Assembly (NCBI GenBank): GCA_937922925.1
Contig: CALAKU010000048.1
Span: 1-43,941, forward strand
Source: an uncultured Arenicella sp.
GTDB lineage: Bacteria > Pseudomonadota > Gammaproteobacteria > Arenicellales > Arenicellaceae
DNA: 43,941 bases
Direction: 5' to 3'
Positions 25,453-36,456 of this stretch are shown piece after piece. The stretch's first letter is position 1. Each line of letters begins with the position of its first letter. A program made the translations under genes and the position numbers. The notes beneath the pieces are model-generated. The model did not search any database and was not told the DNA's origin. It saw nothing but the letters and a program-made list of their open reading frames with translations.

Positions 25453-25625
25453 TTGATAAAAAACTACTTGAAATGCTGGTGTGCCCAGTTACCAAAGGTT
25501 CCTTGGAATACGACGCTAATGCCAACGAATTAATCTCTCGCCCAGCAAAATTAGCATACCCAATTAGAGACGGTATTCCGGTTATGCTCGAAGATCAAGC
25601 AAGGCCACTGACCGACGAGCAATGA
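25449..25625 (+). CDS. Trm112/YcaR-family small protein
   Basis: 58 residues, starting in an ATGA overlap with lpxK and ending in an ATGA overlap with kdsB. The Trm112-like sequence [19 protein letters not shown], followed by [19 protein letters not shown], matches the E. coli YcaR type, which sits in the same place between lpxK and kdsB. Only one cysteine is present, so it does not bind zinc through four cysteines. Its role is unknown. Confidence 0.92.
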
Positions 25626-26395: not shown

Positions 26396-26881
26396 ATGAC
26401 AAAAACCAAATTACTGTTCGTTTGCATGGGTAATATTTGTCGTTCACCGACCGCACATGCAGTGATGCGAGATAAAATTGTATCGCAGGGCCTTGAGGCC
26501 GAGATCTCAATCGACTCGGCGGGCACACATGCTCATCATATTGGCGAGGCTCCAGATTCGCGGGCTCAGCAAACCGCGGCTGCCAGGGGTATTGATACTC
26601 GAGGATTGTCTGCTCGCAAAATTCATACGAGCGACTACCAGCAATTCGATTTCATCTATGCGATGGATCAACACAATTTAGATCTGATTCAGCATCACCA
26701 GCCCGAAGTGGGGGCATCGGCCCATGTGCTGCTCTTTCTGGATTCGGCTGTGCGGCTTGGTTTGACTAAGCAAAAAGAAGTGCCAGACCCATATTACGGA
26801 GGCAGCAAAGGTTTTGATAATGTTTTCGATCTAGTTGATCTTGGCTGCGATGCAATCCTCAAAGAGCTACTTAACAGATGA
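26396..26881 (+). CDS. Low-molecular-weight protein tyrosine phosphatase
   Basis: 161 residues. The P-loop is VCMGNICRSPTA (Cys10, Arg16, the CX5R motif), and the general acid lies in VPDPYYGG. SAGTHAHHIGEAPDSRA is the family's second conserved block. Bacterial members dephosphorylate BY-kinases (Wzb, Etp) or act on small phosphorylated substrates, but there is no BY-kinase here. Conservation beside kdsB suggests a general role. Its stop overlaps the next start as ATGA. Confidence 0.92.
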   Translation: MTKTKLLFVCMGNICRSPTAHAVMRDKIVSQGLEAEISIDSAGTHAHHIGEAPDSRAQQTAAARGIDTRGLSARKIHTSDYQQFDFIYAMDQHNLDLIQHHQPEVGASAHVLLFLDSAVRLGLTKQKEVPDPYYGGSKGFDNVFDLVDLGCDAILKELLNR

Positions 26882-27378
26882 GCCAAACCCAACTGCTTAT
26901 CAATGTTGAGAAGCAACGCCTCTTGGTATTTGATCAAAAGGGCGAATGCATTTGGGATAGAGCTATTGCCACCGCCAAAAATGGAGTTGGGCAAGAGCAA
27001 GGCAGTGAGTGCACGCCCTTGGGTCGGCATCGTATTCGCGCAAAAATTGGTGCAGGCCAAGCCTTAAATACGGTGTTTATTGGGCGTCGACCTACTGGAG
27101 AGATCTACTCACCGAGTATGGCCAAGCAATACCCAAGTCGAGATTGGATTCTCTCACGAATTTTATGGCTGTGTGGTGAAGAAGTAGGCTTTAATCGCGG
27201 CGGGTCTGTCGATACTCAACGGCGCTATGTCTACATTCATGGCGCGCCAGATTCGCATGCAATGGGCAAACCAAGCTCGCATGGATGTGTCAAAATGCGC
27301 AATCAAGACGTGGCAGACCTCTTTGAAATGGTAGAGATTGGTACGCCAGTACTTATTATTGAAAACGAAAACTCATGA
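26878..27378 (+). CDS. YkuD-domain enzyme without signal peptide (probable cytoplasmic L,D-carboxypeptidase)
   Basis: 166 residues. The YkuD active site is intact: H121-G122 (VYIHGAPDSHAMG) and S134-H135-G136-C137 (KPSSHGCVKM), with Cys137 the nucleophile. The N-terminus, MSQTQLLINVEKQRLLVF, enters the catalytic domain at once; there is no signal peptide, membrane anchor or LysM domain, so the enzyme should stay in the cytoplasm. That excludes the usual periplasmic cross-linking role. A class of cytoplasmic YkuD enzymes (ElsL of Acinetobacter baumannii) removes the terminal D-Ala from recycled tetrapeptides as an L,D-carboxypeptidase. Coupling to nagZ, which works on the same pool of recycled muropeptides, supports that role. 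The substrate is inference. Confidence 0.88.
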   Translation: MSQTQLLINVEKQRLLVFDQKGECIWDRAIATAKNGVGQEQGSECTPLGRHRIRAKIGAGQALNTVFIGRRPTGEIYSPSMAKQYPSRDWILSRILWLCGEEVGFNRGGSVDTQRRYVYIHGAPDSHAMGKPSSHGCVKMRNQDVADLFEMVEIGTPVLIIENENS

Positions 27379-27406
27379 CCCTCACGTGACCCCCGCATGA
27401 CCCTGA
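27374..27406 (+). repeat. Three-copy 11-bp tandem repeat making a start/stop ladder
   Basis: The junction reads CATGACCCTCA, CGTGACCCCCG, CATGACCCTGA in direct succession. Each copy carries a stop overlapping a start: the YkuD stop with ATG at 27375, the stop of a four-codon ORF (M-T-L-T) with GTG at 27386, and the stop of a second four-codon ORF (M-T-P-A) with the nagZ ATG at 27397. Three steps of 11 return to the original frame. Confidence 0.85.
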
Positions 27407-28362
27407 AAAGACTCCCGCTTGGCCCGATTATGCTCGATGTGGCTAGCCTTACTTTAAGCGACAAAGAACGAGAAACGCTGGTACATCCATTGGTCGGTGG
27501 TGTCATTCTTTTTGCGCGAAACTATCAAAACCGTGAACAAGTTGCTGCATTAATCAGCGAGATTAAATCACTTCGAAGCCCTGAGTTATTAGTTGCTGTA
27601 GATCAAGAGGGCGGGCGAGTCCAACGATTTAAAGACGGTTTCACTCGCTTGCCTGCGGCCAATAGTTTTGGTGAATCTTGGCAGGCAGATAAGCAAACCG
27701 CGCCTATTAAAGCCTTTGAGTCTGCTGTCACAATGGCCAGTGAGTTAATCGAGGTTGGCGTCGACTTTAGCTTTGCACCGGTGTTTGATGTCGAAACTCA
27801 GGCCAGCGACGTAATTGGTGATCGTAGCTTTCATTCCGATCCTGCGATTGCTGTCGAATTGCTTGGGGCGTATATCGATGGAATGCATGCCGCTGGGATG
27901 GTTGCGATAGGCAAGCATTTTCCGGGCCACGGTGGCGTGGCTGGAGATTCTCATCATTGTCTGCCCTGCGATGAACGAAATCTAGAGCAACTACTCGCGC
28001 ACGATTTACAGCCGTACAAAGAGCTGATTCACGAAATCGATGGTGTCATGACCGCGCATGTCTTATTTGATCGCTGCGATCCGCACATACCAACTTACTC
28101 GCCGTTTTGGTTGAAAACAGTATTGCGTGAGCAACTTGGTTTTCAAGGCGTGGTTTTTAGTGATGATCTCACCATGCAAGGAGCGGTAGATGTGCATGCC
28201 GATATCATCACTCGGGCCGAACAGGCCTTGGCTGCCGGCTGTGATATGGTATTGGTGTGCAATCGGCCAGACCTAAGTGAACAGCTTATCGAGGGTTTGG
28301 ATTTTACCGTCAATGAAAGGCAATCTTTTAGGCTAACCAGGCTGTTAAAACGAACCTCATAA
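27397..28362 (+). CDS. nagZ: NagZ, beta-N-acetylglucosaminidase
   Basis: 321 residues, a glycoside hydrolase family 3 enzyme without signal peptide. It acts in the cytoplasm, releasing GlcNAc from GlcNAc-1,6-anhydroMurNAc peptides during peptidoglycan recycling. Motifs: AVDQEGGRVQRF, GKHFPGHGGVAGDSHHCLP (mobile loop with catalytic histidine), MTAHVLFD, and FSDDLTMQGA with the nucleophile aspartate. In many gammaproteobacteria its products influence AmpR-controlled beta-lactamase, but no ampC or ampR is here. The start is the last step of the ladder described at 27374-27406. Confidence 0.95.
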   Translation: MTLKRLPLGPIMLDVASLTLSDKERETLVHPLVGGVILFARNYQNREQVAALISEIKSLRSPELLVAVDQEGGRVQRFKDGFTRLPAANSFGESWQADKQTAPIKAFESAVTMASELIEVGVDFSFAPVFDVETQASDVIGDRSFHSDPAIAVELLGAYIDGMHAAGMVAIGKHFPGHGGVAGDSHHCLPCDERNLEQLLAHDLQPYKELIHEIDGVMTAHVLFDRCDPHIPTYSPFWLKTVLREQLGFQGVVFSDDLTMQGAVDVHADIITRAEQALAAGCDMVLVCNRPDLSEQLIEGLDFTVNERQSFRLTRLLKRTS

Positions 28363-29200: not shown

Positions 29201-30064
29201 CTAGCCGTCATTTGATTGTTTTTCGGCTGCTGCTTTAGCGGCCTTTTTAGCTTCTCGCTCAGCCTCCTTAGCTGCTTTTGCAGCCTCACGTTCGGCCTTT
29301 TTAGCGGCAGCGATGGCTTCTCGTTCAGCTTTCTTTGCTGCCCTAGAGGCTTCTTGCTCAGCTTTTTTTGCCGCTCGTGCGGCTTGTTTTTCTGCGCGGC
29401 TTGCTTGTTTGGCGGCCTTAGCGGCTTCTCGTTCCGCCTTTTTTGCAGCGGCCTTTTCAGCTCGCTCTGCGGCTAACGCTGCTTTCGCTGAATCCTTTTC
29501 TGCTTCTTTAGCCGCCTTAGCGGCTACTTTTTCGTTTTGGCTTCTGACTTTACTTGCCCGGCGCTCTTCTTTTTCGGCATCGCGTTTTCGTTGCCGTTCT
29601 AGTTTTTTAATCCGACGCTCAACTGGGTCGCTGCGCTTTAGTATTCCAAGGCGGTTAAAAAGGCCTTTTTCGCGTTGAGTCGGTTTGGTAATCACGGTGC
29701 CGCCGTGGTGGCGGTCTTCGGTAGACGGCTCTAAGGTTTGGATGTTGGCCAATTCCACATCGCCTTTGAGCTCTACGACTTTATCGTCTTTAAATACGAC
29801 GGTGATGAGCCGTTGTTCGGTCTCGCGGCGTTGCTGATCTCGGCGCGAGTAAAAGTAATCCCAGCGTTGTTCGTTAAAGGGGTCTATCACCATTGGTGTG
29901 CCGAGGATAAACAGCACTTCTTGTTTGCTCATTCCAAAGCGAATCTCTTTGAGATCGCTATTGTTGATGATGTTGCCTTGCTGGATATCTGGCTGAAAAG
30001 GCTTGATGCAAGCGCTTAACAAAAGGGCCGAGGCGAGTATTACTGTAGTTAGTTTTAACGTCAT
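29201..30064 (-). CDS. bamE: BamE (SmpA/OmlA) lipoprotein with long Lys/Ala-rich C-terminal tail
   Basis: 287 residues, more than twice the 113 of E. coli BamE. The first 140 are normal: a lipoprotein signal with lipobox LSAC (Cys19), then the BamE fold with IRFGMSKQEVLFILGTPMV, NEQRWDYFY and LITVVFKDDKVVEL. BamE stabilises the BAM complex that inserts outer-membrane proteins. From about residue 145 there is a highly charged stretch built of AKKAERE- and AAKAAK-like units, predicted to be one long helix, ending in EKQSNDG. The base composition of the tail follows the repeat and it has produced long open frames on the opposite strand, which are shadows. It ends a minus-strand run with recN and the GNAT gene upstream. 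Confidence 0.9.
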   Translation of the reverse strand: MTLKLTTVILASALLLSACIKPFQPDIQQGNIINNSDLKEIRFGMSKQEVLFILGTPMVIDPFNEQRWDYFYSRRDQQRRETEQRLITVVFKDDKVVELKGDVELANIQTLEPSTEDRHHGGTVITKPTQREKGLFNRLGILKRSDPVERRIKKLERQRKRDAEKEERRASKVRSQNEKVAAKAAKEAEKDSAKAALAAERAEKAAAKKAEREAAKAAKQASRAEKQAARAAKKAEQEASRAAKKAEREAIAAAKKAEREAAKAAKEAEREAKKAAKAAAEKQSNDG

Positions 30065-35832: not shown

Positions 35833-36006
35833 GACTCAGTTAGGTTTAGTCGTCTCAAAACCGCTCTTTTCAAAACTGCTCTTTATTGAAAGCTGGGAGC
35901 GTCCTCTGCGATCGACCGTAATTAATAATCTATGTTGTTGGCTTACAAGATATGCAGCTAAAAATAGGGCGGAAAGTAGATTGGTAGACTATAAGGTCTA
36001 TTCCAG

Positions 36007-36091
36007 TGGTACCGAGGGCCGGAATCGAACCGGCACTCCCGAAGGAACCGGATTTTGAATCCGGCGCGTCTACCAGTTCCGCCACCCCGGC
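36007..36091 (-). tRNA. tRNA-Leu (anticodon CAA)
   Basis: The minus strand folds as a class II tRNA of 85 bases with encoded CCA (complement of 36007-36009). Acceptor GCCGGGG pairs with CCTCGGT; the anticodon stem CCGGA/TCCGG encloses loop TTCAAAA with anticodon CAA; the variable arm is TCC-TTCG-GGA; the T-arm holds GGTTCGATTCC. It resembles E. coli leuX and reads UUG. The discriminator base is A, as leucine identity requires. Confidence 0.96.
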
Positions 36092-36105
36092 TCACTGGAG
36101 GCGCG

Positions 36106-36135
36106 ATTATAAAGGGCCTTATCAAGAATGATCAA
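36106..36135 (-). promoter_or_regulatory. Sigma-70 promoter of tRNA-Leu
   Basis: On the minus strand TTGATC (36130-36135) and a perfect TATAAT (36106-36111) are separated by 18 bases. A GC-rich discriminator (CGCGCC) follows, typical of stringently controlled stable-RNA promoters. Transcription should begin about 36099, eight bases before the tRNA. Confidence 0.75.
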
Positions 36136-36191
36136 TTGCTTTTTGTTAGTTATTACTTTTTGCTAGTTACTATTCGTCACTAAATGAATGC

Positions 36192-36222
36192 AAAAAAAAA
36201 CGCCGCGAAACTCGCGGCGTTT
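36192..36222 (-). terminator. Strong rho-independent terminator on the minus strand
   Basis: An 11-bp stem (AAACGCCGCGA with TCGCGGCGTTT on the plus strand) encloses a three-base loop. Read on the minus strand it is followed by nine T residues (complement of 36192-36200), an excellent terminator. No minus-strand gene is recognised upstream of it; the nearest element beyond is tRNA-Leu, downstream. On the plus strand only TTT follows, so it works poorly in that direction. Confidence 0.85.
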
Positions 36223-36456
36223 AAATAACAAAAAGAAGAGAGAGAGTTATGAAAATAAATACTCATTTACGTTTCATGAGCCAATAATAAGCGCCGTCTC
36301 GGCGTCGCCCTTACTATTAACTCACTTTTAACCAAAATTAGGGTTTTTCTAACGCGTTTTGTGGTTTTTGCAACACAATTGGTTTTATTTGCAACACGAT
36401 TTTCATTATTTTTCGAAAAATCAAATACTTATGGGCAACTTCTAACTTAGTTTAGC
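36223..36456. other. Gene-free regulatory stretch, possible source of a small RNA
   Basis: AT-rich, no recognisable gene. On the minus strand it feeds the strong terminator at 36192-36222, and TTGCAA with TAGAAA 16 bases on (about 36371 and 36350) could start a transcript of roughly 150 bases. On the plus strand a 12-codon ORF with a purine-rich leader lies at 36249-36287 (MKINTHLRFMSQ), followed by a small GC hairpin at 36291-36305. Near the glycosyltransferase start are two TTTGCAACAC repeats and a 14-base palindrome ATTTTTCGAAAAAT (36408-36421). Confidence 0.45.
36367..36397 (+). repeat. Two direct repeats TTTGCAACAC, 21-bp period
   Basis: TTTGCAACAC at 36367-36376 and again at 36388-36397. 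The 21-base period, two helical turns, places both copies on one face of the DNA, as for cooperative binding of a regulator. They lie 60-90 bases before the glycosyltransferase operon. Confidence 0.6.

Follow-up and report, generated by a model that had tools for sequence, protein, structure and literature searches.

A tandem duplication between ykuD and nagZ in an uncultured Arenicella sp. and its chain of stop/start overlaps

Introduction

In a genome of an uncultured Arenicella sp. the stop codon of a YkuD-domain gene and the start codon of the following nagZ gene are joined by three near-copies of an 11-bp unit, in each of which a TGA overlaps a start codon. Does this ladder pass ribosomes from ykuD to nagZ, or is it what a short tandem duplication leaves behind when its unit happens to have a suitable length? 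We analysed the whole stretch of 43,941 nucleotides that holds the junction (contig CALAKU010000048.1, here called the window; its assembly comprises 2.69 Mb and is 87.6% complete) and compared the junction with those of relatives.

Results

The ykuD/nagZ junction

The ends of both genes look right, since both proteins have Pfam matches (Table 1) and the NagZ N-termini of relatives align with that of the window, for example MKRTPLGPVMLDV in L005 with MTLKRLPLGPIMLDV in the window. The name nagZ for the GH3 gene is a presumptive one, based on the motifs of its protein. The earlier note had described three 11-bp near-copies at 27374-27406 carrying ATGA, GTGA and ATGA, and two micro-ORFs, MTLT and MTPA, leading from the ykuD stop to nagZ with a return to the original frame. 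The letters are as described, and the sequence confirms the path: the frame changes by -1 at each step, and the third step is back in the frame of ykuD. Copies 1 and 3 share 10 of their 11 bases, copies 1 and 2 share 8, and copies 2 and 3 share 7. A spacer of 18 nt (+18) separates the two genes. All three overlaps are unbroken despite the substitutions between the copies, which counts against the explanation that we prefer below.

Table 1. Features at the ykuD/nagZ junction (positions in the window)
Feature	Position	Strand	Description
YkuD-domain (L,D-transpeptidase-like) gene	26878-27378	+	stop TGA 27376-27378; Pfam PF03734, E 2.1e-22; from ORF table
Repeat copy 1, CATGACCCTCA	27374-27384	+	ATGA: ykuD stop / micro-ORF 1 start
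Repeat copy 2, CGTGACCCCCG	27385-27395	+	GTGA: micro-ORF 1 stop / micro-ORF 2 start
Repeat copy 3, CATGACCCTGA	27396-27406	+	ATGA: micro-ORF 2 stop / nagZ start
AAAGACTCCCG	27407-27417	+	within nagZ; latter half of the 22-bp period, 7/11 to copy 2
Micro-ORF 1	27375-27389	+	ATG ACC CTC ACG TGA (MTLT); TGA 27387-27389; from sequence
Micro-ORF 2	27386-27400	+	GTG ACC CCC GCA TGA (MTPA); TGA 27398-27400; from sequence
nagZ-like GH3 gene	27397-28362	+	321 aa; ATG 27397; Pfam PF00933 (Glyco_hydro_3), E 9.2e-81

The tandem repeat

Tandem Repeats Finder (TRF) reported the site 27374-27406 as 2.8 copies of 11 bp with a score of 41, and also as 2.4 copies of 22 bp, extending to 27425, with a score of 55. 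Arrays scoring at least 55 numbered four in the real window against a mean of 0.083 when the window was shuffled 60 times with dinucleotides preserved; for scores of at least 41 there were seven against a mean of 0.68 (60 shuffled windows). When only the local 200 bp were shuffled, a score of 55 was reached in none and a score of 41 in two of 1000 trials. The repeat before nagZ exceeds chance, whether as two 11-bp steps or as one 22-bp step, and by the TRF scores the neighbouring copies at this junction are more alike than chance would make them, as in slippage-type repeats.

The period of the array is either 11 or 22 bp, because the simple measure for 11-mers is shared with relatives and that for 22 bp is higher in the window than in any of the 28 relatives compared. 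In a plain comparison of adjacent 11-mers the best value of the window (8/11) was not unusual and was equalled at the junctions of L009 and L015, while at a period of 22 the window reached 17/22 and the junctions of 28 relatives at most 13/22. Counted by hand, two 11-bp steps need four substitutions and one 22-bp step needs five, a difference that does not separate them. The 22-bp period extends into codons 4-7 of nagZ and would fit equally well if the region around the nagZ start had been duplicated once.

The nagZ junction is not alone in having a short tandem duplication, since three further arrays in the window score at least 55 (29315-29385, 36135-36169 and 36367-36411). The first of these has a 33-bp period and a TRF score of 86; it falls within the tail, rich in Ala/Lys/Glu, of an ORF on the minus strand (29201-30064) that may resemble a BamE/SmpA-type lipoprotein. 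Three short tandem duplications other than the one before nagZ lie close together, within about 560 bp at 35855-36411, with periods of 15, 17 and 21 and TRF scores of 53, 56 and 55.

The chain follows from the length of the unit

With a repeat period of 3n-1, each further TGA falls in frame with the RTG before it, so that the stepping from frame to frame is a matter of geometry. Random units containing RTGA were simulated in three tandem copies. Units of 11 bp gave a two-hop chain, i.e. one through two micro-ORFs, in 17258 of 20000 cases and units of 14 bp in 16485 of 20000; units of 9, 10, 12 and 13 bp gave none in 20000 cases each. The ladder is an automatic by-product of the repeat length and provides no separate evidence.

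Chains can also arise with no repeat at all. Among 18-mers drawn from the window and placed between fixed ends, 6262 of 200000 (3.1%) formed a two-hop chain. We surveyed 492391 bp from 102 sources for chains between mechanically called ORFs of at least 100 codons, with ATG and GTG starts and micro-ORFs of at most 10 codons. The 186 chains comprised 172 direct overlaps, 11 one-hop and three two-hop chains; if TTG starts and micro-ORFs of up to 20 codons were admitted, 237 chains were obtained (196 direct, 36 one-hop, five two-hop). These counts retain spurious antisense ORFs, and L023 supplies two rows. The pattern RTGA-N7-RTGA-N7-RTGA has a single match in the 2.69-Mb assembly, at the nagZ junction, and the reversed control pattern likewise has one; we weighed the single genome-wide match against our preferred explanation.

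Junctions in related genomes

Counting that of the window, nagZ is present in 17 of 18 genomes of the genus. It follows ykuD in all 16 other congeners, where the nearest of its candidate starts lies anywhere from -4 to +106 nt, and the spacers occupy all three reading phases. In four of the 16 (L009, L011, L013 and L018) the two genes overlap by ATGA (-4 nt); L018 has extra candidate nagZ starts at +2 and +20. In L010, another congener, one candidate start lies at the window's distance of +18 nt and a second at +27, and there is no repeat. Two other junctions of the window's own cluster show 4-bp ATGA overlaps (25622-25625 and 26878-26881). An ancestral ATGA overlap between ykuD and nagZ is plausible in view of the four congeners and these two neighbouring junctions.

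The repeat itself was found only in the window. With a TRF threshold of at least 30, a tandem array at the ykuD/nagZ junction was present in none of 28 relatives, all of them other species or more distant; L028 was excluded from this test as ykuD was not found there. The earlier note had named relatives lacking a repeat-based pattern, together with no effect of copy number on NagZ level, as observations that would speak against its reading, and the array-free junctions go part of the way towards the first of these. The 33-mer, with up to three mismatches allowed, occurred in one of the 18 genus genomes, that of the window, and once only there. A search with 181 bp of junction DNA matched one of 61 genomes, again that of the window. 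Since none of the 28 junctions has an array, the comparison gives no sign of selection. The junction can drift freely, and the repeat seems confined to the lineage of the window.

Two points about this comparison count against our preferred explanation. The tandem-array test left out 17 of the 46 junctions surveyed for chains. Moreover, the comparison is among non-conspecifics, so that both the ancestral state and the course of events have to be read across proteins of about 66-72% identity; in the search of the 18 genus genomes the best other NagZ was 72% identical over part of its length (L018) and the rest 67-70%.

The 46 junctions remained after 56 of 102 loci had been dropped, which were without a ykuD stop just upstream. 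Five had the direct -4 overlap, one a one-hop chain (L021) and two a two-hop chain, namely the window and L023. In L023 (1455-1494; G044, of the same order) a two-hop RTGA chain of 8 and 5 codons leads into nagZ in the absence of a tandem array. Two loci of the same genus as L023, L019 and L022, retain an initial step of 8 codons that begins with TTG, together with an ATG step, and do not reach nagZ. Mini-ORFs are not kept at the junction in relatives, as conserved regulatory mini-ORFs would be.

Initiation signals and coupling distance

None of the three starts had a Shine-Dalgarno match upstream of it (for nagZ, 20 nt were scanned). This absence is no proof of coupling, as neighbouring genes are also without a match (the gene at 26396) or have weak ones (five others, -2.0 to -3.3 kcal/mol). 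A Shine-Dalgarno-like match (-5.4 kcal/mol) does occur in the ATGA-overlap congeners L011 and L013. A promoter scan of the region gave two promoter-like sites against a shuffle mean of 3.1 and was weighed neither way; one of the two sites lies within ykuD (27332-27359, + strand). The predicted mean unpaired probability was 0.29 for the nagZ start and 0.23 and 0.08 for the micro-ORF starts; these values have no control and were given little weight.

According to the portions of PMC10666635 used here, re-initiation drops steeply with distance and is nearly abolished at about 20 nt; at +14 nt it was 60% for one E. coli pair and less than 20% for another. That study treats pairs at -8 to +10 nt as coupled and pairs beyond +20 nt as independent, and omits +11 to +20 nt as variable. 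The distance from ykuD to nagZ (+18 nt) falls in this omitted range, and only the micro-ORF steps are at -4. Given the steep fall, we expect an 18-nt gap to weaken the coupling of ykuD and nagZ; serial -4 overlaps could partly restore it. The same portions state that the last 15 nt of the upstream gene suffice; this was tested as fusions to a long glpD reporter and thus says nothing for a free 15-nt ORF that hands on a ribosome. The earlier note had suggested that the two additional steps lower NagZ output. Such a lowering would hold relative to the presumed ancestral overlap and not necessarily relative to a plain gap of equal length, against which the micro-ORFs could equally raise the output.

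Discussion

We consider it likely that a lineage-specific tandem duplication occurred at an ATGA-type junction and that the chain is a by-product of its length, serving at most as a modest relay. Before the duplication the ykuD/nagZ junction probably overlapped by ATGA, and slippage in replication probably produced the short tandem duplication in two 11-bp steps or one 22-bp step. Each copy is a stop/start overlap because the unit contains RTGA and has a length of 3n-1. Measured from where the ykuD stop ends, the nagZ start would have moved from -4 to +18 nt, and two four-codon ORFs would thereby have come to span the gap. Translation of nagZ would most likely be a mixture of fresh initiation and weak re-initiation. 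No features marking the chain as a dedicated regulator were found in the window or in relatives. Of the proposal in the earlier note that slippage expanded an ancestral ATGA overlap, the tandem duplication is real and the ATGA overlap plausible; slippage itself we infer. The duplication is apparently lineage-specific, and a function of the chain as a relay, although possible, is putative.

Several other explanations were weighed. The most serious is that nagZ is only started directly, either afresh or by a ribosome that slides over the 18 nt, and that the micro-ORFs are hardly translated. This may be so, though we give it less than even chances. As nagZ is chain-free at 0 to +106 nt in 12 of the 16 congeners, coupling by overlap is not required for nagZ in the genus, and one candidate start of L010 lies at the same distance with no repeat. 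Yet fresh initiation at the window's nagZ may be weak, given the missing Shine-Dalgarno sequence and the low predicted accessibility of the start, while two ATGA-overlap congeners do possess a Shine-Dalgarno-like match. The opposite view is a functional relay, in which ribosomes from ykuD re-initiate at ATG 27375, GTG 27386 and ATG 27397 in turn and supply much of the NagZ, the number of copies setting the NagZ:YkuD ratio. The perfect chain of stops and starts, three starts that all lack a Shine-Dalgarno match and the absence of a promoter-like excess are in its favour; an overlap chain could also bridge a distance that a plain gap would not, and a two-codon mini-ORF affects the next gene in the case described in the portions of PMC8708949 used here, so that in principle an ORF of four codons could be long enough. 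We nevertheless judge the relay unlikely. The relatives' junctions examined carry no repeat, genes elsewhere in the cluster are also without or weak in Shine-Dalgarno sequences, the 15-nt result comes from long-reporter fusions, and the loss compounds over successive steps. GTG is usually the weaker start codon, and very short ORFs can lose peptidyl-tRNA.

Slightly less likely still is a slippage-prone array in which the number of 3n-1 units tunes or rescues nagZ translation and only lengths that keep the chain are tolerated. A plain coincidence, in which the chain formed in a short spacer with no duplication, seems very improbable to us. Two-hop chains do form in random 18-mers, few-hop chains occur in the survey, and L023 has one before nagZ with no tandem array; against this, the repeat beats its shuffles and the chain follows from the repeat. 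Least probable is readthrough of the ykuD stop to a YkuD-NagZ fusion. It is true that nagZ lies in the frame of ykuD with only the TGA and six sense codons (PSRDPR) in between, the frame being open from 27379 into nagZ, but chance alone would put a third of all spacers in frame, and those of the congeners occur in all three phases. The duplication with the chain as its by-product hence remains our preferred explanation.

If the relay were true, a duplication that would be expected to uncouple two genes keeps them coupled by its length modulo three, and the junction would be a natural test of serial re-initiation. If it is untrue, the junction is a caution that a 3n-1 repeat bearing RTGA mimics a designed ladder.

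Comparison with known systems

In the literature titles and opening lines, no start/stop ladder made by a repeat was found among the matches listed. Overlaps of -4 nt (ATGA) are described in the portions considered of PMC6728339, PMC10666635 and PMC12548453 as sites of translational coupling by termination-reinitiation. Each junction in the window is an RTGA overlap of this known type; the window differs in having three in series with two four-codon ORFs, whose use is putative. The mycobacterial interspersed repetitive units (MIRUs), as portrayed in the part of PMC12548453 considered, carry a short ORF whose coupling to the following gene at -4 nt probably lessens the impact of the insertion. 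Here too a repeated element supplies a short ORF with -4 nt spacing to the next gene. In contrast to the MIRUs, which in that text appear mobile and occur in many mycobacteria, and of which numerous dispersed copies would be expected in a genome, the window has a local 11- or 22-bp duplication, and its 33-mer occurs once in its own 87.6%-complete genome.

In the axe-txe operon a two-codon minigene before txe raises the translation of Txe, depending on distance and frame (PMC8708949, in the portions used). The likeness is a mini-ORF close upstream that alters translation of the next gene, putatively so in the window. The difference is that the axe-txe minigene is a single mini-ORF with initiation signals of its own, 15 nt from txe, studied in reporter fusions, with no repeat mentioned in those portions. 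The nearest layout among the relatives, L023, also leads from the YkuD stop to nagZ by RTGA steps through two micro-ORFs; it differs in its spacer of 33 nt and in having no tandem array. The ladder of the window is thus a variant of known coupling layouts and not a member of the MIRU, axe-txe or other families compared.
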